From a virus: a stretch of DNA of 64,000 nt. The stretch covers positions 1 through 64,000 of IMG/VR virus record IMGVR_UViG_3300005529_000010; one strand, 5' to 3'. The notes below the pieces were generated by a model. It ran no database searches and was not told the DNA's origin. It was given only the letters and a program-made list of their open reading frames with translations. Each line of letters begins with the position of its first letter. Position 1 is the stretch's first letter. Positions 4,758 to 39,322 of the stretch are shown piece after piece. The translations under genes were made by a program, and so were the position numbers.

Positions 4758-5198
4758 TTACGGGGTCGTGCCGGGCACGAAGGAGCCGAACTGGCCAGAG
4801 ACCGGGCCACCAGCCACGCTTTGATCGGTGACGTCGGTCGTGAAGCTGAACGGGCCGTTGGCGCCGGTGCCGCTCCAGGTCAGCGTCGAGGTGATGTTGG
4901 CGGCCGTCATGGTGGCGTTGACCGCCTGGCCGTCGGCCGACAGCGCGACCTGCACGGTCGGGTCAGAAGACGAGACAGAGCCGCCGGCCGGGCCCGGAAC
5001 GTTGTTGCCGTTTGCGTCCTGGAAAATCAGCGGACAGGTAAACGGCGTATTCACGGTGAGTTGTTGCATAGCCACGATGATCTCTCCTTTGGGGGTGGTG
5101 GTGTAAGCGCCGGCAAACCGCCCTCTCACAGGCGGGCCGAATTCTTCCGCAAGCAGGGCTTGGAGAAGCTCGATGATCAGTTTTTTGAACAGGCTCAT
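4758..5198 (-). CDS. Ig-like domain protein
   Basis: 146 residues if started at ATG 5198 (ATGA overlap with the protease gene). The last 100 residues look like a bacterial Ig-like beta-sandwich (TCPLIFQDANGNNVPGPAGG, SSSDPTVQVALSADG), a type often found as capsid or fibre decoration that binds carbohydrate or stabilises surfaces. An internal ATG at 5069 starts exactly at this domain and has an AGGAG upstream, so a 103-residue product could be the main or a second form. The extra N-terminus (SLFKKLIIELLQALLAEEF) is amphipathic. Confidence 0.65.
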   Translation of the reverse strand: MSLFKKLIIELLQALLAEEFGPPVRGRFAGAYTTTPKGEIIVAMQQLTVNTPFTCPLIFQDANGNNVPGPAGGSVSSSDPTVQVALSADGQAVNATMTAANITSTLTWSGTGANGPFSFTTDVTDQSVAGGPVSGQFGSFVPGTTP

Positions 5199-5971
5199 GT
5201 CTTGCTCGTGAGCGTGACGGTCCAAAAATCCGCACAAAGATCGGAGTCGGTGATGTAGGTGTAGGGCATCCAGAAATGGCCGTTCAGCGTCGGGTCGCTC
5301 CAGCCGGTGCCCCAGCCCGTGCCCCAGCTATTGCGGCACAGGACGGCCTGCATTGCGTTGTCGTAGCCCACTGCGCACACGGCATGTCCGCCGATCGGTT
5401 CGTCCGCTGGATTCGGCAGCTCGACGATCGGGATCGTCGCCGGATCGATGTTCTCGAATTGCTGGAAGACGGAAAATCCGAACACGAACGGCAGACCGCT
5501 CGCCAGGCAGGTTTTCAAAACCGAGAGCGCCGTCCCGTCGATGCTGCGGTAGGCGTAGGCGCGGTGCTCCAGAGCGTTCGTGAAGTCACCGATCGGGGGC
5601 TCGTCCGCAAACTTCGTGATGTCGTAAGGCCAGTCCGCTTCCGTGCAGACGCCGTTCCAACCCAGCGTGTGCAGCCCGTCGCGGATCTCGGCGCCAGCAT
5701 CGACCCCAACCGTGCCCTCGATGGCGCGCTCATTGAAATAGATGAACAGCCGAGACGGCGTGATGAACGGCAGACCTTCCTTGCCGCGTACGAAGTCGAA
5801 AGCGGCGGCGATGGCGTTGGCGGTGCAGCTCCCGAGCTGGCCTTGGTCGTAAATCGGCGGCGCCTTGGCGTGCAGATCGACGGCCGGCGGAAGCGCAATT
5901 GCTGTCGGCCGATACATGTAATCTCGATGATCGAGGCGATCACGGCGCCAGCCGTAGCGCGCGATCTTCAT
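5195..5971 (-). CDS. Papain-like (C1 family) cysteine peptidase
   Basis: 258 residues from ATG 5971 (ATGA overlap with the lipoprotein gene). All papain-fold catalytic elements are visible: Gln43 and Cys49 in QGQLGSC (Q to C spacing of 6 as in papain), His196 in IGGHAVCAVGYD, and Asn214 in NSWGTGWG. No signal peptide or pro-domain is evident. A likely target is protein, either host envelope proteins or phage proteins in maturation. Its place between a lipoprotein and virion-type genes, just after the holin, suggests use late in infection. Longer upstream starts exist but would run far into the lipoprotein gene. Confidence 0.88.
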   Translation of the reverse strand: MKIARYGWRRDRLDHRDYMYRPTAIALPPAVDLHAKAPPIYDQGQLGSCTANAIAAAFDFVRGKEGLPFITPSRLFIYFNERAIEGTVGVDAGAEIRDGLHTLGWNGVCTEADWPYDITKFADEPPIGDFTNALEHRAYAYRSIDGTALSVLKTCLASGLPFVFGFSVFQQFENIDPATIPIVELPNPADEPIGGHAVCAVGYDNAMQAVLCRNSWGTGWGTGWSDPTLNGHFWMPYTYITDSDLCADFWTVTLTSKT

Positions 5972-6258
5972 GGGCGGATGACCTGCATCGGCATGTTCGC
6001 CGGCATGACGATTGTCGGAACCGGCGGCACGACGTTCATGCCCTGCTTCACGTCGCATTGCGGGGAGACTTCGGTCGAGTTCTGGTTCACCCGATTCACG
6101 GTGATGTCCTCGAAAGCCGAATTGATGTGCACGCACCCGGTCGCCGTCACCGGCAGAGCGGCCGCGATTTTCGAGGCGTCGCTACAGCCGCCGCTGAGCC
6201 CGAGGGCACACATCAGGCCAACGAGCGCGAGCGCGCCCGAGATCGAGCGCCAGTTCAT
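5968..6258 (-). CDS. Small lipoprotein, possible spanin-type protein
   Basis: 96 residues, ATGA overlap with holin. An N-terminal hydrophobic segment (about 8-22) ends in LSGGC, a lipobox-like sequence with Cys25 as the predicted lipidated residue. The mature part has few charges and a Pro-rich end (PPVPTIVMPANMP). Position next to the holin suggests an outer-membrane lysis role similar to an o-spanin, but it is not nested in an Rz-like gene and no matching inner-membrane partner is adjacent, so this remains tentative. Confidence 0.65.
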   Translation of the reverse strand: MNWRSISGALALVGLMCALGLSGGCSDASKIAAALPVTATGCVHINSAFEDITVNRVNQNSTEVSPQCDVKQGMNVVPPVPTIVMPANMPMQVIRP

Positions 6259-6455
6259 TGCCCACCAATCTGGTGCGGCGTGAAAAACACGGCGGCGGAA
6301 ACGATGAGCGTCTGCAGCGCGCCGACCACCTCATTCGGGAGCTGGTGGCCGGAGTCGGCGACGTAGGTATCGAACAGATAGACGAGGATTATGGTCAGCG
6401 CGCCGGCCAGCGCGGAGGCGACCGTTTTCGCTACTCCAGGTGTCGGGTCGGCCAT
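6255..6455 (-). CDS. Holin-like small membrane protein
   Basis: 66 residues from ATG 6455. Two hydrophobic segments (about residues 8-28 and 45-60) are separated by a short polar loop (DTYVADSGHQLPNE), giving a small two-helix protein; this fits holins that let the endolysin reach the wall. It is the first gene after an operator-containing promoter and lies 113 bp from the hydrolase gene. A longer start at 6521 would place the promoter inside the gene and is disfavoured. Confidence 0.7.
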   Translation of the reverse strand: MADPTPGVAKTVASALAGALTIILVYLFDTYVADSGHQLPNEVVGALQTLIVSAAVFFTPHQIGGQ

Positions 6456-6492
6456 TTTTGCGGCCTCAATTTCGAAGGTTGATTTCGCGGCA

Positions 6493-6521
6493 ACAATAAC
6501 CGGACAGATCGTCCGGTTCAA
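6493..6521 (-). promoter_or_regulatory. Promoter with operator site 2, drives the holin unit
   Basis: Minus strand: -35 TTGAAC (6516-6521), 17-bp spacer, -10 TATTGT (6493-6498). The operator CGGACA-GAT-CGTCCG (6501-6515, plus-strand reading) fills the spacer, so a bound repressor would block RNA polymerase. The next gene downstream is the holin at 6455. Confidence 0.8.
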
Positions 6522-6568
6522 TTACTGTTTTTGCGGGAAATTCGCCAATAAAAGAAATGGATAATATT

Positions 6569-6979
6569 TTATGTGAGGTCATAGAATTGCTGTCGTCCGA
6601 TCACCGCGAGCGGCTCGCGCGGCGGCAGCGGCCAATGCGCTGGCCACCCTTCCCAGTTCGCCTTGTAGCTTGTGGCTCCGTGGGTGATGTCGGCGAGGTC
6701 GCCCGAGATCGCCTCGGCCGCGATCGTCAGTGCTTCGGCGAACGTCGGATCGGTCTCGTCGACCTCTTCGAGCTGCTTGCGGTTCACGTCGTGCGGCATC
6801 CAGCAATCGAATTGCTCGCGCGCCAGGCATACCGAGATCACGTCGTGCCCCCACCAGGTCGGATCGGACACGCGGTTCATGACCACGTTGGCGACGGCCT
6901 GCATGCCGTCCCAACCGTCGCCGCGCGCCTCCCCCCAGATTGTGCGCGCAAGCACGTCACGAGGGTCGGCGAGATTCAT
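6569..6979 (-). CDS. SleB-type cell wall hydrolase (endolysin)
   Basis: 136 residues from ATG 6979 (ATGA overlap). It begins directly with the Hydrolase_2/SleB domain: DVLARTIWGEARG holds the expected catalytic Glu17, followed by VVMNRVSDPTWWG and the central and C-terminal parts typical of the family. The domain cleaves peptidoglycan glycan strands. There is no signal peptide, so release needs the holin. It is last in the transcript coming from the XhlA-like gene and is separated from the holin by a promoter. Confidence 0.88.
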   Translation of the reverse strand: MNLADPRDVLARTIWGEARGDGWDGMQAVANVVMNRVSDPTWWGHDVISVCLAREQFDCWMPHDVNRKQLEEVDETDPTFAEALTIAAEAISGDLADITHGATSYKANWEGWPAHWPLPPREPLAVIGRQQFYDLT

Positions 6980-7374
6980 TTGCCGAATAGCTTGGTCAGC
7001 ACGAAGCCTATGGCGGTGCCGACCAGGCCGGCGATCCCGGTCCACCAGGCGCGATTGATCGAGCTGTGCAGCGCGCCGCGATCCTGTTCGCGCTCGACGG
7101 CGCGCAGCCGCCGCTCCCAATCGAGCCCATCGACCAACCGGTTTGATGCCTTGTAATCCGAGATGACGCTTTCAAGTGCGCGGAGCCGCTTTTCATATTC
7201 GATGTAATCGATCTGCAGCTTGTTCGCCCGCTCGTGATGTGCCGCGAAGCGGTCGTTCGTCGTCTCATTGAGCGAATCGTATTGTTGCTCCAGTCGTGTT
7301 AAGCGGTCGCGTTCTTCGGGCGTCATATCGGCATTCTGGCGGCCGGCAATCTCCACAACCTCCGCGACAGACAT
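6976..7374 (-). CDS. XhlA-like coiled-coil membrane protein, lysis accessory
   Basis: 132 residues. A long charged coiled coil (about 18-105, LTRLEQQYDSLNE onward) is followed by one C-terminal membrane helix (about 110-127, WWTGIAGLVGTAIGFVL). This layout matches XhlA-type hemolysin and other small lysis helpers. Its stop overlaps the start of the SleB hydrolase (ATGA), indicating translational coupling. A longer N-terminus than 7374 is not available. Confidence 0.65.
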   Translation of the reverse strand: MSVAEVVEIAGRQNADMTPEERDRLTRLEQQYDSLNETTNDRFAAHHERANKLQIDYIEYEKRLRALESVISDYKASNRLVDGLDWERRLRAVEREQDRGALHSSINRAWWTGIAGLVGTAIGFVLTKLFGK

Positions 7375-7431: not shown

Positions 7432-9846
7432 TCATCGCATCGCCAGCCGCTTTGAGCGGAAGCTCGGGGCGGCAACGAGCGCCGAGTCCCATTCGGAATA
7501 GAGAGCTTGCATGAATTTGGAGCTGGGCTCGTTGTCGTTGGCCGGGTCGTTCATGCCCATGCCGCGCAAAAGCAGCCCGCCGCCGCCAAGGAATGTCCCG
7601 GGCGACTCCGCCATGATCGTCGCGATGTCGGTCACCAGCGCGCTTTCCTGCGTGCGGCGCAGATACCAGGCATTGCCCGACGGTGTCGCGTTGAAGCAGT
7701 TGTTGTTAACGGTGCAGCCGGTGACCGCGCCAATCACCTGCGTTGCGTTGTTGCCGCCAGCAACGACCATCCAGCCGCCCTTGCCGCTGAGACCCTGATA
7801 TGCGTACTGGAACCAATAGGTCCAGAGGTCCCAGTACGTGCGATAGCAAGCCGCCGCCGGGAAGGACGAACAGCTTGAGCCGCCATGTCCGGCCGCCACT
7901 GCCTGGGACGAAGATTTCATCCCATCTTCGCCCGGCACTGTCGCCGCGTTCAGCGTGTTGACGAAGCCGCCGTAAATCCAGCCTTGGGAGGGGAACGGCA
8001 CGGAGCCACCGGCCACAGGGTTCGTGTTCTCCACGCCGGAATAGACGCGCGGGCCGGTGTAATTCGAGGCCAGATTGTTCCAGTCGCTCGGGACCTGGCT
8101 GCAATTGTATTCGAGCCCAGTGCTCCAATACGCCGAGGTCGGCATATTGCATTGCATTAGGATGATGCCGGCGACATTCGCGTTGAGCGTCGACAGGTGA
8201 TTCGTGACCAGCAGTTGGTCGATCGCCGACTGGCCACCATTGGCAAGCCAGACACCGGAGTTCGCCGCAATGATGTCGGCCCAAAGCCACTCGGCATCGG
8301 GATAGTTGCCGCGATCCGTGTTGGTCGTCACCGCCGAGAGGGTTGCTCCAGAACCGCCGCCGCTTAGAGAGGTAAGAGTGCAAGCGCTCGTGCAATTCGG
8401 CGCGGTCGAATAGCTGGATAGCTGCGTCATTTGCGCGAGCGTCGAGCCCCAATATTCGCGCATGGTGGCGATGCCAGTGTTCGCTCCGGCTGTCGTCGTC
8501 AAAACCTTCCACTGCTGCCGCTGCGTGGTGTCGTTGGTCTCCAGCGTGCCGCAATTCGTTCCGCCACACGACGCGCCTAGCTGAACGATGTCGCCGACGT
8601 TGTAGCCAGTCCCAGCGTTGCCGATGGTCCAGGCGGTGATTCCGACATCGGTCTTGTCCCAGGGCCGGAAATCGGTCTCGACGTTCCCGAACCCGTCATC
8701 GGTGTTGCCGTAGGCCGTGTTCGTACCCTGGTACGCACCGACCGGCACCCGCCCATCCAAGGCCCAATAATGCAGCAGCGCGCGGAAAGCGCTGGCGCAC
8801 GCGACATTGCGCGCGTTCGAAGCCATCGACAGAAGCTGATTGGCGTTGCGATACACGCCGTCCGCCAAAATTTGGAACGTGATCCAGTCGTCCGCGTCCG
8901 AGCAGTCTTTCTCGAACATGATCTTTTGGTTTTGCGCTGGCGCGCTGAGCGTCGATCCGTTGTTCTGGTAGAACAGCGAGTGATACGTCAGCGCAATATC
9001 CAGCGGGAAATTCGACGACGGTCCGAGGCGCGAGGTGCTACCTTCCGGCCCATTTACGCTGTAGAGCGCGAGGTCCTGCCAAGTGACGGCAGTGCTGTTG
9101 TTCGCCTCGGCAATGATGACTGATGTGCCGCCATTCCAGCTCGCCGCGCCGGGGTTGCTGCCGCCGGTCAGGACTGCCGGAAACGCGGCGCCGTCCTGAT
9201 AGAACGTGAAGTCGCTGCTGGTGCCGGTGCCGCCGCCATTGTCGCAGACTCCGATATGGTGCGGCGACGTGCCGACGAGGTTGGGTGAGTTCTGTGCGGC
9301 GAACGTGCCGCCAACGCCCGTAACCGTCGTCGGACTGAAGAATACGCGGACGTTCGTGCCGTCGATGTTTTCGACGCCGAAATACCAGGACGTGAAGTGC
9401 GGGGAGCCGGTGGTCAGTTCGTAAACCGCAATCGCGGCGTTGCCGGACGAGGGCAGCGCACCGGAGGGGACCTTAACCAGGACCTCCATGCACCAGCCTT
9501 TGTTGTAGTCGATGTTCGAGTATGCGCTCGATCCGGTGTTGGCGTTGGTCGTCCAGGTCGCTGCGTTCGTGACGCTGATTGCAGTCGGCGGCGACCCGCC
9601 ACCCTCAAGCGCTGTCACGCCACACGTCGCGCCCGAGCCCGTCAGAGTCGCGGTGTACGCATTCGAGGAGCTGTCGTGCAGCGTCGTGCACGGACTCGCT
9701 GCTTCGTCGAATTTCCAGAGGCTGATGAGCGAGGACTGGCTGAGGATGTCCTGCTGGTAGTTGCTTGTGGCGCGCACCTCTCCGATCGCGAGAAGCGCGA
9801 GCAGCAACCCGAAAATCGCGCGACGCATCATCTTTTGGTTGCTCAC
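7432..9846 (-). CDS. Large exported protein with LamG-like N-terminus, fibre-associated
   Basis: 804 residues from GTG 9846, or 799 from ATG 9831. The N-terminus is a Sec signal (MRRAIFGLLLALLAIGEVRA). Residues about 30-270 resemble a LamG/concanavalin-type jelly roll (SLISLWKFDEAA; later DIDYNKGWC-like and YFGVENIDGT strands). A GxGY repeat (NAGTGYNVGDIVQLG) lies near the middle and a Trp/Gly-rich Cys-containing C-terminal half follows, unassigned. A sugar-binding surface or virion role is likely; an enzyme cannot be excluded. It is last in the run of five signal-peptide genes. Confidence 0.7.
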   Translation of the reverse strand: MSNQKMMRRAIFGLLLALLAIGEVRATSNYQQDILSQSSLISLWKFDEAASPCTTLHDSSSNAYTATLTGSGATCGVTALEGGGSPPTAISVTNAATWTTNANTGSSAYSNIDYNKGWCMEVLVKVPSGALPSSGNAAIAVYELTTGSPHFTSWYFGVENIDGTNVRVFFSPTTVTGVGGTFAAQNSPNLVGTSPHHIGVCDNGGGTGTSSDFTFYQDGAAFPAVLTGGSNPGAASWNGGTSVIIAEANNSTAVTWQDLALYSVNGPEGSTSRLGPSSNFPLDIALTYHSLFYQNNGSTLSAPAQNQKIMFEKDCSDADDWITFQILADGVYRNANQLLSMASNARNVACASAFRALLHYWALDGRVPVGAYQGTNTAYGNTDDGFGNVETDFRPWDKTDVGITAWTIGNAGTGYNVGDIVQLGASCGGTNCGTLETNDTTQRQQWKVLTTTAGANTGIATMREYWGSTLAQMTQLSSYSTAPNCTSACTLTSLSGGGSGATLSAVTTNTDRGNYPDAEWLWADIIAANSGVWLANGGQSAIDQLLVTNHLSTLNANVAGIILMQCNMPTSAYWSTGLEYNCSQVPSDWNNLASNYTGPRVYSGVENTNPVAGGSVPFPSQGWIYGGFVNTLNAATVPGEDGMKSSSQAVAAGHGGSSCSSFPAAACYRTYWDLWTYWFQYAYQGLSGKGGWMVVAGGNNATQVIGAVTGCTVNNNCFNATPSGNAWYLRRTQESALVTDIATIMAESPGTFLGGGGLLLRGMGMNDPANDNEPSSKFMQALYSEWDSALVAAPSFRSKRLAMR

Positions 9847-9852
9847 GCCGAT

Positions 9853-10311
9853 TTACTTATAGAGGAAATTCACAAGAAACGTGGTGGCCGCAGGGGCGCC
9901 CGTATCATTATCGGCGTAGCCCGTCGTCACGCAGGCCGTGATAGCCGTGGTGAATGTCACCCCCAAACCTGTCATCGAGACATAGCCGGCGCCGAGGCTT
10001 GATGCGTTCGCGGGAATCAACCCGCGCCACTTCGGCGTTCCGCTCCCACAGGTCGTCGACCCCTGTGAGGCATCATAGATCTTGATGTACGCCATCGTGG
10101 CGCCGTTGTTGAAGGTCTCAACGCCGTAAAGCTGACCAGGGCTCGCATCGACAGCGACAGACGTTGTGTTGTTTGCCACCTGCAGGCTTTTGACGCTGAG
10201 TCCGGTCGTCGTGCCCGGGATCGGCTGAACCTGATTGCCGAGATACGAAGCGGTGGCCGGGTGGGCCAGAAAAAGGAGCGCAAGGAGCGCGATCAGAATC
10301 TTCGTTTTCAT
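9853..10311 (-). CDS. Small secreted protein of the fibre cluster
   Basis: 152 residues from ATG 10311, whose first base overlaps the upstream stop (TGATG). A textbook Sec signal ends in LAHPATA before Ser22. The mature part is beta-rich, low in charge, with two Cys pairs (TTCGSGTPKW, ITACVTTGYAD) that could form disulfides in the periplasm. Likely a small beta-sandwich; function unknown. Co-transcribed with the fibre genes. Confidence 0.7.
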   Translation of the reverse strand: MKTKILIALLALLFLAHPATASYLGNQVQPIPGTTTGLSVKSLQVANNTTSVAVDASPGQLYGVETFNNGATMAYIKIYDASQGSTTCGSGTPKWRGLIPANASSLGAGYVSMTGLGVTFTTAITACVTTGYADNDTGAPAATTFLVNFLYK

Positions 10312-11555
10312 CAGTTCACACTCCACTCAGTGCCGTTGTAGATGACGTCGATCGCGGCGTAGGGGCTGTTGATCACCGCCGTTGCGCCGCCGTCGATCGT
10401 GCCGGCGGCCGGCGTCACGGTGATGTTGTTGGTTGCCGCGTCGCCCTTGCAGTCCTTGATTTTGTAGTAGAGGCCGGTCGCCGGAGAGGACGGTAGGTTG
10501 ACCGTCGTCGCCGCGCCGACCGTTTTGTTGATGCAGACGAAAAAATCCGTCGTCGCCGAAACCGTCACGGCGCCCGCCGCCGTCACGACACGCGTCGGCA
10601 CCGATAGGCTGCCGGTGAACGTCGTCGTGCCGGAGTGCGAGACGTTGCCGGTGAAGGTCGACGTACCGGAATAGGTGTTGTTGCCGTTCAGCAGCGGGAT
10701 CGTCGCGCCAGACGTGCCAGTGTTCTGCGTCGCGGCCGTGCCAAACGACACTCCGTTCGTCTTCGTGACGGTGAGCGCGCCAGTGCCGGTGTTCAGCGTG
10801 CCGTCGCCGCCAACCGTGAACCCACCGAACGCGCCAGCATTGTTGTACTGCACCTGCCCGGACGAACCGCCAGGCGTGCCGCCGCCACCGCCGCACGTCG
10901 AACCGTTGTCGATGAAATTGCCGCTCGCATCGATCTTCACGCAGTCGTTCGTGGTCAGCGATCCGGTCGTGGTGACGAACGTCGTGGTGTTGCCCGATCG
11001 CGTGCCAACCGAGGGGGCAACGCCGGCGCCGCCGCCGATCACCGGAGCGTTGGCTGTGAGCGCGGCCGACGAAGCCAATGTGCTCGCGCCAGAAAAATAG
11101 GGGATGCCGCCGCTGGTGCCGCTCGCCGTGACCGCTAGCGTGCCGGATGTCGTGATCGGGCTGCCGCCAACCGAGAAGATCCCGGGCATCGTCAGCGCGA
11201 CCGACGTCACCGTGCCGCTGCCACCGCCGGCGCCGCAATCGCTACCGGTGCCTGAGAGGACACCCGACGTGTTGACGTGCAGACATTGCGTCGAGCCGGT
11301 GATGCCCGAGAACGTCGTACCGCCGAGCGTCACGCCACCGCTAAAGATGTTCGTGCCCGTGAAGGTGCTGTTGCTGCCCTGCAGCAGATTTGCGATGGCC
11401 TGCGTCGTGGTTTTCACCGCCGGATTGGCGGTCTGAAAGATCGGCACGCTTTCGGTGCCGGTGAGCGACGATGCCGATCCGAGCGCGTTGATCGTGGAGT
11501 CCGCAAAGGCGGGCCCGGCGATCAACATCAGAAGCGCGACAAGTATCTTTTTCAT
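10311..11555 (-). CDS. Fibre-like repeat protein with signal peptide
   Basis: 414 residues. The N-terminus MKKILVALLMLIAGPAFA is a canonical Sec signal ending in AFA. The mature start (STINALGSASSLTGTE) and the body of short Gly/Thr/Ser beta repeats (GTPGGSSGQVQYNNAG, NTGTSGATIPLLNGNNTYSG) are typical of phage tail-fibre shafts. The same modules recur in the 11852-15814 gene. There is no S74 chaperone domain; the end is a small beta-rich tip (YYKIKDCKGDAATNNITVT). A secreted fibre is unusual because tails normally assemble in the cytoplasm. Confidence 0.78.
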   Translation of the reverse strand: MKKILVALLMLIAGPAFADSTINALGSASSLTGTESVPIFQTANPAVKTTTQAIANLLQGSNSTFTGTNIFSGGVTLGGTTFSGITGSTQCLHVNTSGVLSGTGSDCGAGGGSGTVTSVALTMPGIFSVGGSPITTSGTLAVTASGTSGGIPYFSGASTLASSAALTANAPVIGGGAGVAPSVGTRSGNTTTFVTTTGSLTTNDCVKIDASGNFIDNGSTCGGGGGTPGGSSGQVQYNNAGAFGGFTVGGDGTLNTGTGALTVTKTNGVSFGTAATQNTGTSGATIPLLNGNNTYSGTSTFTGNVSHSGTTTFTGSLSVPTRVVTAAGAVTVSATTDFFVCINKTVGAATTVNLPSSPATGLYYKIKDCKGDAATNNITVTPAAGTIDGGATAVINSPYAAIDVIYNGTEWSVN

Positions 11556-11567
11556 ATATGCGGCCCC

Positions 11568-11855
11568 TTACTGGACAAGCATCTTGACGCCGGTGTTCAC
11601 CAGCAGCGCGGAGCCGGTATCCACGAGCAGGACCGACGTGCCGCAGGCGCCGGCCTGCACAAGCATGTTGATCCCGGTGTTCACGAGCAGGTTGACCCCG
11701 GTGTTCACCAGCAGGACCGAGGCCGGAGAGCAGGTGCCGGCTGTGCGCGGGCCGCCGCCAACTTCGGGCAGCAAAAAGACGCTCTGTCCGATCGCGCCCT
11801 GAGACACGACCAGGGCGGCGACGATCAGCAGCAGAACGGCGGCGATACCCTTCAT
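11568..11855 (-). CDS. Secreted LLVNTG-repeat protein
   Basis: 95 residues, ATGA overlap with the large fibre gene. The signal peptide is about residues 1-23 (LLLIVAALVVSQGAIG). The mature part is almost entirely repeats: VLLVNTGVN, LLVNTGIN, MLVQAGACG, VLLVDTGSA, LLVNTGVKMLVQ, i.e. a 7-8 residue period with alternating hydrophobic and turn positions, as in narrow beta-helices or beta-solenoids. Two Cys may stabilise it. It probably forms a short rod or cap with the neighbouring fibres. Confidence 0.65.
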   Translation of the reverse strand: MKGIAAVLLLIVAALVVSQGAIGQSVFLLPEVGGGPRTAGTCSPASVLLVNTGVNLLVNTGINMLVQAGACGTSVLLVDTGSALLVNTGVKMLVQ

Positions 11856-14800
11856 CGCGCCCTCGCCGACCTTTTGTGTTCGAGGAGATCGAGCCGCCGC
11901 TTGAGTTCGGCGTTCTCGGCCGAGAGCTGCTGGACGGATTTGATCAGCGGCCCGATCAGCTCGTCATAGGCCAGGCCATAGCGCTCATGGTCGTTGGCCG
12001 GCTTGTGCAGCCCGCCAAAATCTTCGCCGTCGAGCGCCGCGTCGAGCTGCTGTGCGATCAGCCCATAATGGCGGTGATGATCTTCACCTGTCCGCCACTG
12101 GAAGGAGACCGGGTTCAGTTTGTTGATAAAGGCGAGCCCGAGGTCGTCCGGCTGAATGTTTGTTTTGTCGCGACGATCCGACGTCTGGATCGTTCCGTTG
12201 ACCGCCCACACGTCGATCCACCGATCGCCAGTGTTGCCGAGATGAGTTGCGTTGTCCGTTGTCGGCCCGAGCGTTGGCGTGTTGACGCCGACTGAGAACG
12301 AGCCCTTGAGCAACAGCGTCGTGCTGCCGGAGCTGCTGACCTGCGCGTTCGTGGCGCCGCCGAAATTGAGCGCGCCGCCGCCGGCAATCCACGCGTTGGC
12401 CCATTCCAGAGACGACGTGCCCAAGTCGTAAGTGTTGTCGGCGTTGGGCTCGATCGTCATGCCGGTTGCGAACTTCAAAGCCGCGCCGGTCAGCGTGACG
12501 GTCGAACCGTTGCCCGACAAAACCGCCGTGGCGCCGAGATCGATGTTGCCGTTGTTCGGCAGGGCCAGCCCGGGCGACCCATTTGCGGTGATCGTGCCCG
12601 AGAAGGTCGGGTTGCTGACGACGTTCAGCGTGCCGCTCCCGGTGATCGGGCTGCTCGGCGAGGCCGAGAGATTCGTGCCCGCCGCGATCGACGTCACCGT
12701 TCCACTGCCCGCCGAAGTCCACGACGGATCAGCGCTCGCGCCATTGCTGGTGAGCACTTGCCCGGCGGTCCCAGGGGCGAGCCAGGTCGGCGCCGGGTGG
12801 GCATAGAGGATGGCACCTTGCGAGCCAGGCGCGAGCTGGCTCCAGCCACCGACCGTCCGCTCGGCAATACCGCCGACGGTGCTGCCGAGGTCGTGATCGA
12901 GGACGCCGCCGATACCGGCCAAGCTCTGCATCGTCGGGGCCGCAGAGCCACCGCTGATATTGGCGAGCACCGTCGCGTCAGAGGCCGAGGCCATGGAAAC
13001 GGTGACCGCGCCAGTGGTCGGGCTCGCCGACACGGCGCCGGAGCCGGTGACAGACGAGACGGCGCCACCAGATCCGCACGCGCTGCCCGTTCCGGAGAGA
13101 ACGCCAGAGCTGTTCGCCTGCACGCACTGTGTGGAGCCGGTGATGTTGGTCGTGAGGTTGCCCGACAGCGTCTCGGTGACGGTGCGGACGTCCGAATACC
13201 GCAGCAGGTTTGTGCCGAGCGAGATCGTGTTGTCATTCACCGGATTGAGCGGCGCCTCGGCCAGGAGCTGCGTCGCGTTGATGCCGAGCTGGCGCGCGCC
13301 CAAATTGGCCCCGTCGCAGATCGTCGACCAACAAAGCTGATCGGCTGCCCCGAGGGCGATGTTCGCGTTGAACGTGTTCACGCCGCTCCAGGTATTTGTG
13401 CCGTTCAGGAGCGGAATGTTGGCGCCGGAGGTCCCCGTATTGTCGAAAGCAGCCGTCCCGAAAGCCGTGCCGTTCGACTTCGTGCAGACGATCACGCCGA
13501 CAGTGATCGTGCAGTCACCGCTCATGGTGAAGCCGCCGAAAACGCCGCCGTTATTGTACTGAATTTGCCCGCTGCTGCCGCCAGGCGTTGAGCCCGAGCC
13601 GCCGCACACCGCGCCCGTCCCGGAGATCACGCCGGACGAGTTCACCTGCAGACACTGTGCCGTGCCGGTGATTCCCGTGGTGATGTTGCCGCTGAACGTC
13701 GCGGTGTTGACGTGAAAATCGGACCAACGAAGCGCGTTCGTCCCGAGCGTGAGCGTGTTGTCATTGACCGGGTTAAGGGCCGATTCGGCAAGAACCTGAG
13801 TGCTGCCGATGCCGAGCTGCCGCGCGCCGAGCGCCGCACCGTCACAGATCGTCAGCCAGCACGCTTGCTGACCGGAGCCGAAAGCGATGCCGGCATTGGC
13901 GGTGATCAGGCCCGAGAACGTTGGGTTGTTGACCACCGCGATCGTGCCGGTCCCGGTGATCGGATTCGGCGTCGCGGTGATGTTCGTGCTCTGGCTGATC
14001 GAGGTGATACCGCCACCGCCACCGCCGCCCTGGTTGCAGCCGATCAGCGTCATCGACTCGCCTTGGATGCCAGAGCAAAAGGCGAGGTTGGCGTTGCTGC
14101 CGATGACGATGCCGCCGACGTTATTGCTGCTGACGTCGACACCCTGGAACGTCAGCCCTGTTCCATTGAGCGCGCCGATCCCGTACGCCTGCGTCGTGGC
14201 GCCGGTGCGATTGGCGTAGCTGCCTCCCGTGATCAGACCGGTCAGAGTCGTGCCGATCGACAGACCATGATAGGTCGCGCCCGGCGTGGATTGGCCGTTC
14301 AGCTCGGAAATGTTCGCATTGGCTTCGAGGAAATTGAGCGCGCCGGACTGGATCGCGATGCCGTCTTTGGAGGCGCCCTCGATCACGTTCTGAACGAGCG
14401 AGAGCTTGTCGTTCTGGCCGGTGACGTTGATGCCGTTGCCAACGTGGGAGGCCGCCGTCGCTTGCGCGCGGCCGGTCGCGATGACCCCCTCAGAGCCCAT
14501 CTGTGTGCTCGAAATCAGAATCGGCAGTTGGCCATAGCTGCTGATCTGGATCGAGTCGTTGCCGTCGCCGTTCAGGATGCCGTTGACGAGCTGGAAATTC
14601 TCGATCGCCTTGCCGGTCGATCCTGCGACCTGAATGCCGCCGCCGCTATTGGCGAATGTCGAGATGTTGTACCAGGGCAGCAGGTAGGACGGCCCGGTGA
14701 AATTGGTCGTGACCTGAACGCCCCAGCCATTATTGAACTGCGCGATGGAGTTCTGAAAATTCCATTGCATCGAACCCGAAAAGAACAGGTTCGTCATCAG

Positions 14801-15814
14801 GAAGCCGGCGTTGAAATTGCTGTCGGCTTCGAGACCGGAGGCGAACGACCAGGCGGACGGCCCCAGCAAAAACCCGTTGTACTGGTTGCGCGCCTTGAGG
14901 TCATAGAGCGTGAACTGATTGGTCACGCCCGCCATCGACAGGCCGATGGCGCCCGAAGTCGCGGGCGAGCCCGAGCGGTCGAACGTGATGCCCTGAATCA
15001 AGCCGTTGGTCGCGGCGTTGTTCAGCAGCACGTTGTTGGTGCCGGTCGCTTTGAGGGTCACAAGCGCGCTGCCGGCGCCGACGATCGTCGTGTTCGTGCA
15101 GGAGCCCGTCGTGAGGTTGCCGGCCACCTTGTACGTCCCGGGCGGGAGGTAAGCGGCGCACGTCGCAAGCGCGGTGTTGATCGGCGTCGTGCTGTCGGCG
15201 GCGCCGGTCGGATCGGCGCCCTCGGCGATCACGTTGTCCAGCGTCGACATCAGCGTGTTGATTTGCTCGGGCGTCATTGCCGCCGCCGGCGCCGTCACGC
15301 CGGAGATGTTGCCCAGCATCGTGTCGTTGGGGATCGATATGCTGCCGCCGCTGCCGCACGCCGCGCCCGCGTCGCCGATCGAGGAGGCGCCGGTCCAGGT
15401 CGCGCAGTGGCCGCTGGTCGGGGTGCCCGTGACGGTCACCAGCCCCGTGGTCGAGCCGCTGAGCGAAAGGACGGTGTTCCCGTCGACAACGATGTTCAGC
15501 GGCTCGGACGGCGCTCCGCCGAGCGCTTCAAGATCAAGGGTCGCGCCGCCGTTGGTCGTGGCGCCGATGCACAGCTCTTGATACGGGCCGGAGATCGGCC
15601 CGGAGTTGACGCAGATCGCCTTGCCGCCGTTTTTTGTGACCCCGAATTCGGTGGCGGCGCCGGCGGTCGCGGGCCCAGCGTCCATCAGCACGCCATCGGT
15701 GGCCCACATCCCGACATGACCGGGCGTCACATTGCCGGATTGAACGATGTATCCGGCTTCCGCCTCAAGCGAAAAAGAAATCGCAGCGATTAAGGCGACG
15801 AGCCACTTTTTCAT
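11852..15814 (-). CDS. Large tail-fibre/spike protein with S74 self-cleaving chaperone domain
   Basis: 1320 residues from ATG 15814. Signal peptide MKKWLVALIAAISFSLEAEA, then fibre repeats, a beta-helix region (about 190-540, with NGIQGITFDR-like and AIENFQLVNGILNG segments), two tandem modules starting CWLTICDGA and CWSTICDGA, and a C-terminal intramolecular chaperone (residues about 1212-1320; SDRRDKTNI, LNPVSFQW, HYGLIAQQLDAAL, terminal coiled coil). In characterised S74 proteins this domain trimerises the fibre and cuts itself off at the SD motif, which is present here. The most likely receptor-binding protein, oddly with a Sec signal. Confidence 0.9.
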   Translation of the reverse strand: MKKWLVALIAAISFSLEAEAGYIVQSGNVTPGHVGMWATDGVLMDAGPATAGAATEFGVTKNGGKAICVNSGPISGPYQELCIGATTNGGATLDLEALGGAPSEPLNIVVDGNTVLSLSGSTTGLVTVTGTPTSGHCATWTGASSIGDAGAACGSGGSISIPNDTMLGNISGVTAPAAAMTPEQINTLMSTLDNVIAEGADPTGAADSTTPINTALATCAAYLPPGTYKVAGNLTTGSCTNTTIVGAGSALVTLKATGTNNVLLNNAATNGLIQGITFDRSGSPATSGAIGLSMAGVTNQFTLYDLKARNQYNGFLLGPSAWSFASGLEADSNFNAGFLMTNLFFSGSMQWNFQNSIAQFNNGWGVQVTTNFTGPSYLLPWYNISTFANSGGGIQVAGSTGKAIENFQLVNGILNGDGNDSIQISSYGQLPILISSTQMGSEGVIATGRAQATAASHVGNGINVTGQNDKLSLVQNVIEGASKDGIAIQSGALNFLEANANISELNGQSTPGATYHGLSIGTTLTGLITGGSYANRTGATTQAYGIGALNGTGLTFQGVDVSSNNVGGIVIGSNANLAFCSGIQGESMTLIGCNQGGGGGGGITSISQSTNITATPNPITGTGTIAVVNNPTFSGLITANAGIAFGSGQQACWLTICDGAALGARQLGIGSTQVLAESALNPVNDNTLTLGTNALRWSDFHVNTATFSGNITTGITGTAQCLQVNSSGVISGTGAVCGGSGSTPGGSSGQIQYNNGGVFGGFTMSGDCTITVGVIVCTKSNGTAFGTAAFDNTGTSGANIPLLNGTNTWSGVNTFNANIALGAADQLCWSTICDGANLGARQLGINATQLLAEAPLNPVNDNTISLGTNLLRYSDVRTVTETLSGNLTTNITGSTQCVQANSSGVLSGTGSACGSGGAVSSVTGSGAVSASPTTGAVTVSMASASDATVLANISGGSAAPTMQSLAGIGGVLDHDLGSTVGGIAERTVGGWSQLAPGSQGAILYAHPAPTWLAPGTAGQVLTSNGASADPSWTSAGSGTVTSIAAGTNLSASPSSPITGSGTLNVVSNPTFSGTITANGSPGLALPNNGNIDLGATAVLSGNGSTVTLTGAALKFATGMTIEPNADNTYDLGTSSLEWANAWIAGGGALNFGGATNAQVSSSGSTTLLLKGSFSVGVNTPTLGPTTDNATHLGNTGDRWIDVWAVNGTIQTSDRRDKTNIQPDDLGLAFINKLNPVSFQWRTGEDHHRHYGLIAQQLDAALDGEDFGGLHKPANDHERYGLAYDELIGPLIKSVQQLSAENAELKRRLDLLEHKRSARAR
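13068..13885. repeat. Two diverged direct repeats of about 270-285 bp inside the large fibre gene
   Basis: Segments near 13068-13355 and 13600-13885 encode the same module: an ICDGAxLGARQLGI start, NPVNDNTxxLGTNxLR, then a CxQxNSSGVxSGTGxxCG end. Spacing is about 530 bp. Boundaries are approximate. A related CLHVNTSGVLSGTG unit occurs in the 10311-11555 gene. Confidence 0.7.
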
Positions 15815-15898: not shown

Positions 15899-16198
15899 TT
15901 ATCGTCGTCTGAGCACGACGACGTTCACCGCGAGCACGAATAGCCCGTACATCCCGAGCGATAGAAGCTGGTTCATGTCGGGGTCGGGCGTCGAAAGCCA
16001 GAGCCAAAACATCGAGCCGACCGTCAGCAGCGTGAACAGGCTTGCGAGGGCGACTAGCGCCCGCTGCGACAGGCTCTTGAGCGCCAGAGCGAAGAGCTGC
16101 GCCGCACGATCGTCTTGAGACGACTCCGACAGAGTCGAACCGTCGGCCATCTCCGGGGTCGCTTCACGCTCTGCGACCAACTCGAAAGGCTTTGCCAT
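15899..16198 (-). CDS. Small two-helix membrane protein
   Basis: 99 residues. An acidic N-terminal half is followed by two hydrophobic helices (about 45-68 and 78-95) and ends in a basic LRRR. It could be a holin-like or membrane-modifying protein, but it lies far from the lysis genes. Second gene after the minus-strand promoter near 16430. Confidence 0.6.
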   Translation of the reverse strand: MAKPFELVAEREATPEMADGSTLSESSQDDRAAQLFALALKSLSQRALVALASLFTLLTVGSMFWLWLSTPDPDMNQLLSLGMYGLFVLAVNVVVLRRR

Positions 16199-16207
16199 GG
16201 CTGGACC

Positions 16208-16423
16208 TCATGCAACTTTCTGGATGCGTTTTTTCATAGCCGTAAATCCGCCGCCTGATCCTTCGTCGTCGCCGAGCTTGGCGTTCGCCTTACGCACCGC
16301 CGCGTCATAGCTCGCGAGGATGCGAAACGCCTCAAGTCGTTGATCGAGCGTGATATCGGGTTTTTCGAGATCGGCGGCGATTTTGTTCGCCAGGTCCGCG
16401 AGGACGTCGCTGATATCGGCCAT
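16208..16423 (-). CDS. Small helical protein
   Basis: 71 residues, nearly all helical and charged (MADISDVLADLANKIAADLE), with a basic end. No motif recognised. First gene behind a minus-strand -10 TATAGT (16430-16435), whose -35 region is overlapped by operator site 4. Confidence 0.6.
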   Translation of the reverse strand: MADISDVLADLANKIAADLEKPDITLDQRLEAFRILASYDAAVRKANAKLGDDEGSGGGFTAMKKRIQKVA

Positions 16424-24173: not shown

Positions 24174-24509
24174 TCAAACCCCCAGAATTTTGCTCACCTG
24201 CAGGTGCTCCTGGAAATTGAGCCAAATCCATTCCGCGCGCTGCGTGCGGTCCTGCCAATTGACGTCCGTTAAATCAAATCCGTCAATATTTAGAACGGCG
24301 TCCATCTGCTGGTGCATACTTTGATGGTTATACGCCCAGCCCCCCAAACTATACAGCGGCATTGGGTCGAGCTGATATTCGATTAAATAAATCTTATATA
24401 TTTCTCGAATGCGCCGAATGATGTCGCGGTGGTGCGCCATGTGCGAGAACGCCCAGGTGTTCATCGCGGGCTGATCGTTGGGGATGTTGGCGATGCTGGC
24501 GACGCTCAT
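24174..24509 (-). CDS. Small structural-block protein, function unknown
   Basis: 111 residues, ATGA overlap with the large stabiliser gene. Helical and rich in Tyr, His and Trp (HHRDIIRRIREIYKIYLIEY). No motif. It is likely a minor virion or assembly protein because of its position. Confidence 0.55.
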   Translation of the reverse strand: MSVASIANIPNDQPAMNTWAFSHMAHHRDIIRRIREIYKIYLIEYQLDPMPLYSLGGWAYNHQSMHQQMDAVLNIDGFDLTDVNWQDRTQRAEWIWLNFQEHLQVSKILGV

Positions 24510-26746
24510 CCGCGATAATTCCAGGCCACGTCGGTCATCATCACCGACACGAGCGACATGTCAGCCGCGTAGGTCTCAATCGTGACGCCGGTCAGCTCGC
24601 CCTGCTGACCGATCGCCTGCGGCTGGCTCACATAGGCGCCGGGAACCGGAACCGTCGGCGTGAGCGTGTAGACCTGCGTCGTGTCGCCGGTCTGATCGTC
24701 GACCGCGTCGATCGTCACGCTGATTTCCGGCGCCAGGTTGTCGTAATACTGCGCGAGCGCCCAGAGCCGGCTCGCCGTCTTGTTCAGGTGATAGCCGCCG
24801 GGCTCCTCCCACAACTTCGATTGCACAATCTTTTTGAAGCCCGTGGACGGCCTCGCGAACAGCGGCCGGATGTTGATCCCGTCCGTGCCATAGGCGGTGA
24901 TGATCGAGTTCAGCTCCTGGTGCTGCACGAAGATCAGCGGGAAATCCTGGCTCGCCGCCCACCACCTTTTGCCGTCCCAGCACAGCAGCTTGTTCACCCG
25001 CACATTCGTTATCGGGTCGATGATCGGAAGCAGGAGGCACCAGATCTTGATGCCGAAATGGATGGCTTTGCAGGCTGACGGCGTGAAGCTGCCGAAGAAC
25101 GGCACCGAGCTATAGACGCCGTCGAGCTGGTCAGAGACCTTCGTCACCGCGCCGCCATACGAGACATGCACGCCGAACAGGTTGGCGAGCACGATATTGC
25201 GGCTGAACACGTCGATCGTGTCCGGCCAGGCGGTGCCGATCTCGGGGTCCGCGTTCTGGTTCGTGTAGGTCGTCGTCGCCAAGCCGCTGGCGTTGTTGAC
25301 CGTCGTGCTGACGCCGGAGATGTAATTGATCGAGCTGTCGGCGATCAGATAGAGAAAGCCGTTCGTCTGCAGCGGCTTCGTGAACGACACCCGCAGGAAG
25401 GAATCGAAGCTCTGCTGCACGCCCCCGCCGTCGGTGGCTGCGAAATCGGTCACGGACTCGGCGGCCGTGAACAGAAATTTGGGCCCGTCGGTGATCCACA
25501 CGCGCGAGACATAGGTCTCGATTGCGGTCCCCTTCACGCCAAACGGCATCAGGCTCACGGTCGCGTCAGCCGCGTTGTTGCCGCCCGAGATCTGCACCTC
25601 GGCCTGCGTATAGCCGTTGCCAGGATTCACGACATTGATCGCGGTGACCGCGCCGCCGGCGATCTGCGCGACCGCCGTCGCGCCCGTCCCGTCGCCGACG
25701 ATCGTCACGATCGGCGTCGAGGTGTAGCCGGAACCGCCGTCGCTGACGGCGATCGAGGCGATACCGCCGAACGCGATCTCGGTGTAGCCGGCGAACCCGG
25801 AGCCGTGCGGTGTCGCCGGATCGTTGAGCGAAATGGCCGGCGGCGAGGTGAAGCCATGCCCGGGGTTGATGATCGTGAACCCCGTCACCGTGCCGTTCTG
25901 CGCGTTGATGGAGGCCGAAAAGCCCGTACCGCCGCCACCGCCGGTGAGCACGATTGTCGTCTGCGCGGTGTAGCCGGCGCCGCCGTTCGTGACGACGACT
26001 CCGGAAATCCCGGCCGTCGTGTCGATCGTCGCCGTCGCTTTGGCGCTGTTGTCCGACCCGCCGCCCTGGATCGTCACGACCATGTCCTGGTCGGTCACCA
26101 GGTATCCGCTGCCCGGGTTGGTGACGTTGATCTCGCTGATCGCTCCGTTTTCGAGCGTCGCGGTGAATGTCGCGCCCGAGCCCGTGCCGCCGGCGACGGC
26201 GATTGTCGGTTGGCTCGTATAATTCTGTCCGGGATTCGTGACCGTCACGACCGGCCCGAGCGTGCCGGCGGTGAAAACATTCGTGCCGTCCCACAGCCAA
26301 TATCCATTTGGCTGGTCGGCAACGAACAGCAAATATTTCGAGCCCCACTGGCTCAAACCCCATTCGCCCACCGCCGGGTTCTGGATCGCGCCGGCCGGCA
26401 GCACGTTCACCTCGACGTTCGTCTGCAGGTTGATCGCATCGATCGCGCCGTCGCTGCGCAGGACGACGCAATACGGGACCGAGCCGATGTTCCCAAAATC
26501 GAACGCGACGATCGTCAGCCCGTCTTCGATTTTGTAGACGCTGTCGCCCACACCCCACATGGCGCGGAGATTGTTCTTGCCGAACGGCATGAAGCCGTCG
26601 ATCCAAAAGCACTCTTTCTCGTCGACACCAGGGCGAGACGGCTTCGTGTTCATCCCTTCGAATGAATCGAAGCGGAGCGGTTCCGGGCCCGGCGGAACCC
26701 ACGGGCCCGATTGCTGGCCGGGAGCTTGCGGTGCGTCGAGCGGCAT
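24506..26746 (-). CDS. Tail stabilisation / tubular-B-like protein with inserted GxGYT repeats
   Basis: 746 residues. The two ends together resemble the beta-propeller-like stabilisation proteins of short tails (SFEGMNTKPSRPGVDEKE, LLFVADQPNGYWLWDG, then SRVWITDGPKFLFTAAES to the C-terminus). About residues 165-385 are a separate insert with six GxGYT-type units (NPGQNYT, NPGSGYL, NGGAGYT, NPGHGFT, DGGSGYT, NPGNGYT). The insert probably projects from the tail as a beta-rich appendage. Gene order next to two connector genes supports the tail role. Confidence 0.72.
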   Translation of the reverse strand: MPLDAPQAPGQQSGPWVPPGPEPLRFDSFEGMNTKPSRPGVDEKECFWIDGFMPFGKNNLRAMWGVGDSVYKIEDGLTIVAFDFGNIGSVPYCVVLRSDGAIDAINLQTNVEVNVLPAGAIQNPAVGEWGLSQWGSKYLLFVADQPNGYWLWDGTNVFTAGTLGPVVTVTNPGQNYTSQPTIAVAGGTGSGATFTATLENGAISEINVTNPGSGYLVTDQDMVVTIQGGGSDNSAKATATIDTTAGISGVVVTNGGAGYTAQTTIVLTGGGGGTGFSASINAQNGTVTGFTIINPGHGFTSPPAISLNDPATPHGSGFAGYTEIAFGGIASIAVSDGGSGYTSTPIVTIVGDGTGATAVAQIAGGAVTAINVVNPGNGYTQAEVQISGGNNAADATVSLMPFGVKGTAIETYVSRVWITDGPKFLFTAAESVTDFAATDGGGVQQSFDSFLRVSFTKPLQTNGFLYLIADSSINYISGVSTTVNNASGLATTTYTNQNADPEIGTAWPDTIDVFSRNIVLANLFGVHVSYGGAVTKVSDQLDGVYSSVPFFGSFTPSACKAIHFGIKIWCLLLPIIDPITNVRVNKLLCWDGKRWWAASQDFPLIFVQHQELNSIITAYGTDGINIRPLFARPSTGFKKIVQSKLWEEPGGYHLNKTASRLWALAQYYDNLAPEISVTIDAVDDQTGDTTQVYTLTPTVPVPGAYVSQPQAIGQQGELTGVTIETYAADMSLVSVMMTDVAWNYRG

Positions 26747-29604: not shown

Positions 29605-30648
29605 TTACCAGGCGCTTCCGCCGATGTTGTACACCCACGCTCCAGAGTTCGACTTGGCGCAGACCAAGTTGTACCCAAGAACGACGATCCCCTGCTGGCC
29701 GATCTGGCCAAGAGGAACCAGAGAATAGAAGCCCGAGAAATCGAGATTCGCGTCCTCCGATATGTACATGTTGAAGTATTTGAGGTTCGGGACGAACATC
29801 GAGCCCTTTGGCACGAAGTGATCCGCGAAGATCGGCACGCCCGAGACATTGAGGTTCGGGAAGCTCGACCGCGCCGGCGTTGAAATCTCGTACTGATTGC
29901 CGGGCCTGACGAACTGCTGCTCGGTCCCGATGAAGTCGGCGTTGAGCGTGGCGTGATCGGCCGGGTTCATGACCCCGAAGGTCGGCGCCTCGCCACCGGC
30001 GTTGTCGGTGATGTATTCCAGGACCGCCGCCATGGCCTTGCGGTTGAAGCCCAGCGTGTTCACCGAATAGGTGGAGAACTGGGTGGCCATGTTGATGTAC
30101 TGGCCCTGGAAAGCCGAATTGCCGGGCGCGTTGCGGTTGATGCCGCCGTAGGTCGGAACGTTCGTGCCGTTGTCGAACGCCTCGACGAAACCCTGCGGCA
30201 ATTGCAAATTGTTCGAATTGTTCGTGAACATCAGCCGCGCCATGTTCTGGCGGGTGACGGCGTAGGCGTCGTTCATGCGGGCCTTAAGCAGCGAGATCTC
30301 TCGCTCCGTGGCCTGGATGACCGTTTCGCCGAACGGCAGCGGGATCGGCACGACCCAATAGGCTGTCGCCCATTGCCCGTTCTGTATGCCCGGCGTGATG
30401 ACTGGCGAGTTGAACCCGCCGCCATAGCCGGTGAACTGGCCCTGCACCATCGACTGTCCCTGCATCGGGATCGTGATCTGGTTGAGGCCGCCGGCGGAAC
30501 GCTGTGCGTTGCCAAGCAAATAGAAGAGGGTCGCCGAAGCGAAATAGATTTGGACGAACAGCTTGGGCACGAACGCGCGGCGTGTGACCGCCGTCAATTC
30601 GTTGTACAGCCCGCCGGTCGGAACTGCGCCAATACCTGGTAGCGGCAT
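29605..30648 (-). CDS. Major capsid protein candidate
   Basis: 347 residues, good GGGAG ribosome site. It follows the scaffold-like gene and precedes decoration and connector genes, the usual place of the coat gene. Mixed alpha/beta with features such as TIPMQGQSMVQGQFTGYGGG and the C-terminal ILVF-rich strand GQQGIVVLGYNLVCAKSN. No sequence motif is diagnostic by eye, so the fold (HK97-like) is assumed from context. Confidence 0.75.
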   Translation of the reverse strand: MPLPGIGAVPTGGLYNELTAVTRRAFVPKLFVQIYFASATLFYLLGNAQRSAGGLNQITIPMQGQSMVQGQFTGYGGGFNSPVITPGIQNGQWATAYWVVPIPLPFGETVIQATEREISLLKARMNDAYAVTRQNMARLMFTNNSNNLQLPQGFVEAFDNGTNVPTYGGINRNAPGNSAFQGQYINMATQFSTYSVNTLGFNRKAMAAVLEYITDNAGGEAPTFGVMNPADHATLNADFIGTEQQFVRPGNQYEISTPARSSFPNLNVSGVPIFADHFVPKGSMFVPNLKYFNMYISEDANLDFSGFYSLVPLGQIGQQGIVVLGYNLVCAKSNSGAWVYNIGGSAW

Positions 30649-34089: not shown

Positions 34090-34668
34090 TTACGATCCGG
34101 GTCCGGCGTTGCCGCGTCGCACGACTTCGAGCGCCGGGCTGTCCGTCACCAAGCCGCCCGCCGCAGCGTGAGCCCGTCGCAACATTTGGGATGTCCGCAG
34201 CCCGGCATACGGCTCGGGGCCCTGGCCGGTGGTTTGCGCATATGCCTCGCCGCCGGCGAACCCGACAGGCATGCCGCGCGCCTGCATCTCGGCCATGCGC
34301 CGTGTGACGTCGTTCGCCGGCATCGCTACAGCAGCGGTGTCGCCCTCGCGCAGATTGTCCTTGAGATCGGTGATCTTCATGTCGGCGAAGTCGGACTCCG
34401 GCTGGCCGGTCATCTCGGCGGCCGCCTCGATGCGCGACTGCGCCTCCGCCTCCATCATGCGGTATGTGGCATCGCCGGCTTTCGCCTTGTTCGTGCCGAT
34501 CATCGGCGCGGTGATCGCGGGGCTGAACTCGGCGGCCCGCTCTTCGGACTGCGTGTCGTATCCGCACAGCGGACAGAAACGCGGCGGAGCTGTGTCGGTC
34601 GACGGGTGGTGGAGGTGCGAGAACTGGCCGCCACACTCCGGGCAATTATATGTGCGAAGTTTCGCCAT
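34090..34668 (-). CDS. Zinc-ribbon protein between terminase and portal
   Basis: 192 residues from ATG 34668, TGATG overlap with terminase. N-terminal zinc ribbon YNCPECGGQFSH and FCPLCGYDT (two CxxC pairs, residues about 6-36), then helical and disordered parts. No terminase small-subunit signature, although the position would allow a role in packaging. Function unknown. Confidence 0.65.
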   Translation of the reverse strand: MAKLRTYNCPECGGQFSHLHHPSTDTAPPRFCPLCGYDTQSEERAAEFSPAITAPMIGTNKAKAGDATYRMMEAEAQSRIEAAAEMTGQPESDFADMKITDLKDNLREGDTAAVAMPANDVTRRMAEMQARGMPVGFAGGEAYAQTTGQGPEPYAGLRTSQMLRRAHAAAGGLVTDSPALEVVRRGNAGPGS

Positions 34669-38903: not shown

Positions 38904-39322
38904 GTCGGACGCTCCTGCAAAATTTCCTTCGTGCGGTCCATCATGATCCGGCACCACCGCGCGGCCGCGTGCCATTCGTCATCACCGGTGACGAGCGCGC
39001 TCGCCCGGGCAACCTTGGCCAGACTTTGCGCCATAGCCTCGATCGTGTCTGTAATTTCGAGCTGCGCCCGCATATTGGCTGACCCGCGCTCGATCACCTC
39101 GCCAAGCGCGCGATCCACCTCCCGTTCCTGGCTCTCGTGCGCGTCGCGGCCGGCGTCGGTGATGACGTAATTGAACGCATCCAGCCCGTTCAGCAGGCCG
39201 CGCTGCGTGAGCGCGCGAACGGGCTTTTCCCATCGGCCGATCGGCGCGATCGAGCCGCCGCGCACGCAGATCTCCAGGACGGCCAGCTCGTCGGTCGTGA
39301 GCGGCTCGATGACTTCGCTCAT
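38900..39322 (-). CDS. Winged-helix-like protein
   Basis: 140 residues. The first 55 residues look like a winged helix (TTDELAVLEICVRGG, then VRALTQRGLLNGLDAF, YVITDAGRDAH). A long helix follows. Could bind DNA or serve as an adaptor. ATGA overlap with the TPR-glycosyltransferase. Confidence 0.55.
   Translation of the reverse strand: MSEVIEPLTTDELAVLEICVRGGSIAPIGRWEKPVRALTQRGLLNGLDAFNYVITDAGRDAHESQEREVDRALGEVIERGSANMRAQLEITDTIEAMAQSLAKVARASALVTGDDEWHAAARWCRIMMDRTKEILQERPT

Follow-up and report, generated by a model that had tools for sequence, protein, structure and literature searches.

Signal peptides and paired cysteines in a late fibre cassette of an uncultured podovirus-like phage lineage

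Five consecutive genes in the late region of a tailed phage, among them one for an S74 fibre of 1320 residues, each open with a type I Sec signal peptide, and in the lineage of this phage signal peptides go together with paired cysteines. This co-occurrence, with the even number and local pairing of the cysteines, argues for export to an oxidizing compartment, to which the cassette proteins, judged from their sequences, are very probably sent. Tailed-phage morphogenesis is taught as wholly cytoplasmic. The explanation that we hold to be the best one, and moderately probable, is that of a late cassette of exported fibres and accessory proteins that would dock onto tails at lysis. The parts of these tail fibres are known; their probable Sec export route is not.

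The cassette and its signal peptides

The stretch of DNA that was analysed (the window, 64,000 nucleotides) comprises bases 1-64000 of an IMG/VR virus record of 64,826 bases. It belongs to a podovirus-like tailed phage with the gene order terminase, capsid, tail-tube/adaptor, nozzle-type, large internal proteins, exported cassette and lysis genes, part of the structural-gene names being taken from gene order and remote matches only. The features are as follows (window positions):

34668-36593, terminase
29605-30648, major capsid protein
24506-26746, 746-aa nozzle-type protein
16208-16423, minus strand, conserved 71-aa protein encoded ahead of the two-TM gene (27 sequences across the loci)
15899-16198, minus strand, two-TM membrane protein, its gene immediately preceding the exported cluster (26 sequences across the loci)
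11852-15814, minus strand, 1320-aa S74 fibre: signal peptide, N-terminal module, beta-rich shaft, C-terminal S74 chaperone/protease
15755-15814, minus strand, signal peptide of the S74 fibre, residues 1-20, predicted cut between EAEA and G, score 7.7
15470-15754, minus strand, N-terminal module of the S74 fibre, QSGNVTPGHxxxWxxxGVxxDAG, Cys68/Cys82, conserved across the lineage
12029-12181, minus strand, S74 intramolecular chaperone/protease domain with SDxxxK motif
11568-11855, minus strand, 95-aa exported LLVNTG-repeat protein, score 7.5, 2 Cys
10311-11555, minus strand, 414-aa exported fibre-like protein, score 9.0, 6 Cys in local pairs, phrog_15797
9853-10311, minus strand, 152-aa exported protein, score 9.3, 2 Cys
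7432-9846, minus strand, 804-aa exported protein, start GTG or ATG 9831, score 8.1-8.6, 16 Cys
5968-7374, minus strand, lysis region directly after the fibres

An earlier note on this DNA had assigned signal peptides to all five genes. The five ORFs are present on the minus strand, and their starts are backed by the close spacing of the genes: in gene order, neighbours overlap by 4 nt, are 12 nt apart, overlap by 1 nt and are 6 nt apart. Each ORF opens with a convincing Sec signal peptide of type I, and these five are the best in the 64.8-kb record. These signal peptides are MKKWLVALIAAISFSLEAEA, cut before G, in the S74 fibre; MKGIAAVLLLIVAALVVSQGAIG, cut before Q, in the 95-aa protein; MKKILVALLMLIAGPAFA, cut before D, in the 414-aa protein; MKTKILIALLALLFLAHPATA, cut before S, in the 152-aa protein; and MMRRAIFGLLLALLAIGEVRA, cut before T, in the 804-aa protein. 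Ideal A-x-A sites precede the cut in three of them (AEA, AFA and ATA), not in two as had been counted.

The signal-peptide score is home-made and considers the charge of the n-region, the hydrophobic core and the residues at -3 and -1. The cassette proteins reach 7.5-9.3. Known signal peptides (14 sequences) score between 5.6 and 8.8, and none of 8 cytoplasmic or transmembrane controls exceeds 4.8. Above a threshold of 6.3, which was picked after the data had been inspected, we found among all possible window starts (ORFs of at least 60 aa) the five cassette genes and four short ORFs that are probably spurious or transmembrane. Within the lineage, 38 of 477 non-redundant proteins pass the threshold, compared with 7 of 2385 shuffled N-termini (0.3%), and outside the cassettes signal peptides are nearly absent from the genomes except in lysis-region lipoproteins. 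The chance of five given genes among 71 being consecutive is about 5e-6. Close relatives differ in their signal peptides mainly by silent changes (13 versus 4 codons). A lipobox was looked for in the five proteins, none of which has a cysteine at +1, and a surface anchor was likewise found in none.

The description of all five genes as fibre-type held for two of them. In the S74 fibre, PF13884 matches residues 1212-1262 (3e-14, 53.4 bits against a cut-off of 22), the Ser/Lys pair for a putative self-cleavage is present (SDRRDK, Ser1212 and Lys1217), and the protein also matches a PHROG tail spike/fibre family; its 18 cysteines are all locally paired, which makes nine local pairs for the beta-rich shaft. 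The 414-aa protein has repeats in common with the S74 shaft and other fibres, and tblastn matches it to relatives' loci and to the tail fibre of Sinorhizobium phage phiM6. The assignment is weak for the 152-aa protein, which has signal-peptide-bearing relatives in L055 and in the unrelated long-tailed phage L124, and homology does not show it for the 95-aa repeat protein or for the 804-aa protein. The latter has no detectable relatives and is private to one phage, and its AlphaFold2 model, predicted alone, has a pLDDT of 32. To speak of a receptor-binding set overstates the case for the 95-aa and 152-aa genes.

The lysis region encodes a 132-aa XhlA-like holin candidate, a cell-wall hydrolase (PF07486), a small two-TM protein and an o-spanin-like lipoprotein with the lipobox LSGGC in its sequence. 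Relatives share a layout of 71-aa protein, two-TM protein, at least one fibre-type gene with signal peptide, and lysis genes. The two-TM protein carries a conserved LSQRALVAL motif, and its gene immediately precedes the exported cluster in almost every locus.

The N-terminal module and its cysteines

A search with the S74 fibre found matches in 20 of 28 related records, most of them over residues 1-160, i.e., the signal peptide and a module of about 100 residues. This module, which lies right after the cleavage site and begins QSGxVTPGHxxxWxTxGVIxDGG in relatives, is the conserved part of the fibre, and what follows it is swapped between phages. Its AlphaFold2 model is beta-rich with a pLDDT of 85, and neither a PDB profile search nor PDB and BFVD fold searches gave a significant match. 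A tblastn search of 50,697 phage records with one member of the module as query gave no match with E up to 1. The full alignment was too divergent for scanning; a narrower one identified 19 viral loci and had no match in 84,980 species genomes. A weak module match within a 1002-aa fibre of L112 without signal peptide was considered as a fusion link to a conserved tail protein and was rejected, as it consists of a short GHxxx...QDGG shaft motif only.

Forty distinct copies of the module, whole or its first 30 residues or so, could be compared. The cysteine pair is present in all 23 copies with a signal peptide and in none of the 17 without (Fisher, 1e-11), and with full-length modules only, in 20/20 versus 0/6 (4e-6), p-values that overstate the number of independent events, since the module tree, with at least two separate switches of the signal-peptide state and a cysteine change alongside each, forces just two. 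Every copy with a signal peptide has two (or four) cysteines. The full-length module fibres without signal peptide are those of L003, L007 (two), L016/L068, L043 and one of two in L062, the other copies of this class being short proteins of about 160 aa that contain just the first 30 or so module residues. An apparent exception in L067 was counted as exported, as a signal peptide lies just upstream in another frame, near 9100-9200; the frame change is probably a sequence error, the alternative being a frameshift. L058 and L076 score below the threshold, yet were read as signal peptides and counted as such, and L090, with 65 aa and one cysteine, was excluded from the table.

The effect on cysteine number is not confined to the module but reaches whole, mostly unrelated proteins. 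Among non-redundant proteins of at least 100 aa and two cysteines, the count is even in 31 of 32 with a signal peptide and in 122 of 192 without, a contrast that is conservative, because some entries of the second class are exported proteins with miscalled starts, and in which the count for L054 presumes a cut after LCA. Cysteine density in non-redundant proteins is 1.7% with and 0.75% without a signal peptide, and in the former, consecutive cysteines have a median gap of 14 within pairs versus 76 between them (p 3e-32). The cassette proteins have 18, 2, 6, 2 and 16 cysteines. Disulfide formation in the periplasm is the simplest reading of these pairs. The earlier proposal that the proteins are sent to the periplasm is thus strongly supported at the level of sequence, with signal peptide and cysteine pair coupled in 40/40 module copies and even cysteine counts, and the linkage also provides a general, culture-free genomic test for export.

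Two kinds of small proteins occur nearby in relatives. The short proteins without signal peptide join their module residues to a DQPIAIP domain (L058, L059, L060, L063, L075, L087 and others) and in several phages are encoded about 500 nt upstream of an exported long fibre. Small exported, coiled-coil-like proteins with a single cysteine (QQLPPLDPATQLGVCQQQ...) lie beside exported fibres in L058 (8908-9150), L063 (8818-9072) and L062 (7859-8065), and these are possibly disulfide-linked dimers or fibre chaperones.

The fate of the exported proteins

The route that we favour has the fibres folding in the periplasm and attaching to tails once the holin has breached the inner membrane. Each cassette protein would be synthesized as a precursor whose Sec signal peptide (type I) is cleaved off, and the mature chains would most likely fold, trimerize and form their disulfides in the periplasm, where the S74 domain would ensure trimerization and then cut itself off. 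The mature S74 fibre would begin with a docking-like module, which is present also in fibres of the lineage that have no signal peptide. The fibres may then wait in the periplasm until holin and endolysin act at lysis; with the inner membrane open, they might meet the cytoplasmic virions and dock on the tail as disulfide-hardened receptor-binding fibres. Once the holin has perforated the inner membrane, virions and periplasmic contents would mix, and joining at lysis is therefore plausible.

Of the three fates proposed in the earlier note, namely a coat on the host surface, a block to superinfection and entry into the virion at lysis, the last is favoured because relatives carry the module without a signal peptide in a tail slot, and because no other obvious fibre is encoded in the window. 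In L002 and L015, a fibre with signal peptide and 20 cysteines is encoded in the slot flanked by the last adaptor gene and the nozzle gene, and L016/L068 and L007 have a version without signal peptide there; together with L051 these form one supported tree group. The same fibre in the same tail slot, exported or not, is easiest understood if both versions become part of the tail. In the window phage, the adaptor-nozzle slot holds no fibre, and besides the cassette, the nozzle and a capsid-adjacent 363-aa protein there is no fibre-like gene, so the receptor-binding protein of this phage is probably to be sought in the exported cassette. The cassette itself lies in the late gene region and has its module in common with fibres in the tail slot of relatives. 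Against docking onto virions counts that the module has no structural match indicative of docking. G003 has both module fibres without signal peptide in the tail slot and an exported cluster in the late slot behind the two-TM gene, and the late cluster therefore need not supply the only fibres of the virion and may have a separate role. In G339 the two-TM gene is present, and the part of its cluster that can be read contains no gene with a signal peptide. The distant capsid relatives MW202753 and MW202825 have S74/endosialidase-like fibres without signal peptide, which suggests that fibre export is a derived state.

A scan with the 152-aa protein identified a second type of phage. L124 is a 60-kb phage without a match to the capsid family of the window and with a GTA-like long-tail hub protein (Phage-tail_3, Rcc01698); two proteins with signal peptides and 8 and 10 cysteines are encoded directly behind the hub gene and ahead of the lysis genes. 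The trait is therefore not restricted to one tail type, as judged from this single genome, in which it may be a product of gene exchange. It is a tentative but quite conceivable generalization that some tailed phages finish their virions outside the cytoplasm, with Sec-exported fibres, periplasmic oxidation and joining at lysis, as a trait that arises and disappears along with disulfides and is found also in an unrelated long-tailed phage. An unrelated long-tailed phage, L127, has two exported genes with paired cysteines behind its tail-hub gene (10147-15232).

The exported proteins could instead be no virion parts at all and reside in the periplasm or at the surface of the host cell, where they would occupy or destroy the phage's own receptor and block superinfection or re-adsorption to debris. 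We consider this rather unlikely, although the late cluster lies apart from the tail genes, almost always behind a conserved membrane protein, G003 holds both sets of fibres, and the window phage also encodes a sugar epimerase/C-methyltransferase set. In L002 and L015 the exported fibre itself occupies the tail slot, no other receptor-binding protein is evident in the window phage, and the five proteins lack a lipobox or surface anchor; moreover, known exclusion proteins are usually small, and the gene position suggests late rather than lysogenic expression. Improbable is a role as free soluble fibres, depolymerases or adhesins that are released at lysis and bind neither virion nor host: the large, beta-rich and C-terminally variable bodies, an S74 domain typical of polysaccharide-active spikes, and accessory proteins private to one phage, such as the 804-aa one, would fit such a pool, but a lysing phage can release proteins without any signal peptide, the conserved N-terminal module suggests docking, and a catalytic domain was not found.

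Lysogenic conversion, with surface fibres that serve the bacterial host as the MAT adhesins of Bdellovibrio do, would explain the common architecture of signal peptide, beta-rich domain of about 100-130 aa, fibre and S74 (PMC10769870). The cassette, however, lies on the same strand between structural and lysis genes, and the module is found in phage contigs only (0 in the 84,980 species genomes with the narrow pattern), which makes this reading very improbable. Least credible is a reading of the N-termini as hydrophobic anchors or products of chance rather than as cleaved signal peptides; the prediction does rely on a home-made score, but the co-variation with cysteines, their even counts and a predicted cut directly before the module speak against it, as does the 0.3% obtained with shuffled N-termini.

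Known systems and the phage lineage

Known S74 tail spikes and fibres lack a signal peptide and fold in the cytoplasm. The window fibre resembles those of tailed phages in its large, beta-rich body and its C-terminal S74 domain with SDxxxK, and differs from them, and from the two distant capsid relatives, by its signal peptide. The pIII-type minor coat proteins of filamentous phages are Sec-exported and disulfide-bonded before they join the virion, a parallel to the preferred docking route, but these phages are unrelated and extrude through the envelope, whereas the window phage is tailed and lyses its host. The closest described architecture is that of the MAT fibres, which are encoded by Bdellovibrio and were shown on its surface (PMC10769870). 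Both have a Sec signal peptide and a beta-rich domain (about 130 aa in MAT) followed by a fibre, often with S74, but the window genes are phage-encoded and lie between tail and lysis genes, and we count the likeness as one of architecture only, not of membership. Superinfection-exclusion lipoproteins of the T5 Llp type are likewise phage-encoded and exported, but small and with a lipobox, which all five cassette proteins lack, most of them being far larger. A literature search whose coverage mostly left out subscription papers and preprints gave no description of Sec-exported tail fibres in tailed phages. If the fibres are exported and disulfide-bonded, either virions are finished in the periplasm at lysis or the fibres are extracytoplasmic tools during infection, and either fate bears on the annotation and expression of receptor-binding proteins.

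The lineage was collected via the capsid protein, which has at least 49 relatives among viral contigs (62-81% identity) and only two distant ones (34%) among the 50,697 phage records; it is therefore an uncultured lineage. When viral contigs were scanned with the S74 fibre alone or with the 1027-aa upstream protein alone, no matches were obtained, nor did PADLOC or NCBIfam give any. Among the species genomes, the capsid alignment matched three MAG contigs, one of them of Acetobacteraceae: a relative's capsid gene lies on a contig binned with an Acetobacteraceae MAG from a bog. As no further match was found in 299 genomes of this family, an Acetobacteraceae host is merely suggested. Spanin-type lipoproteins point to Gram-negative hosts.

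Right after the lysis genes, the window encodes a papain-family cysteine protease (PF00112, E 1e-6; 5195-5971, minus strand), which is unusual for a phage. At 39319-42847 (minus strand), a TPR protein, a C-methyltransferase (Methyltransf_13/14) and an NAD-dependent sugar epimerase are encoded consecutively, and similar genes lie near the terminase in relatives, e.g., L015 and L118; these genes may alter host surface sugars.
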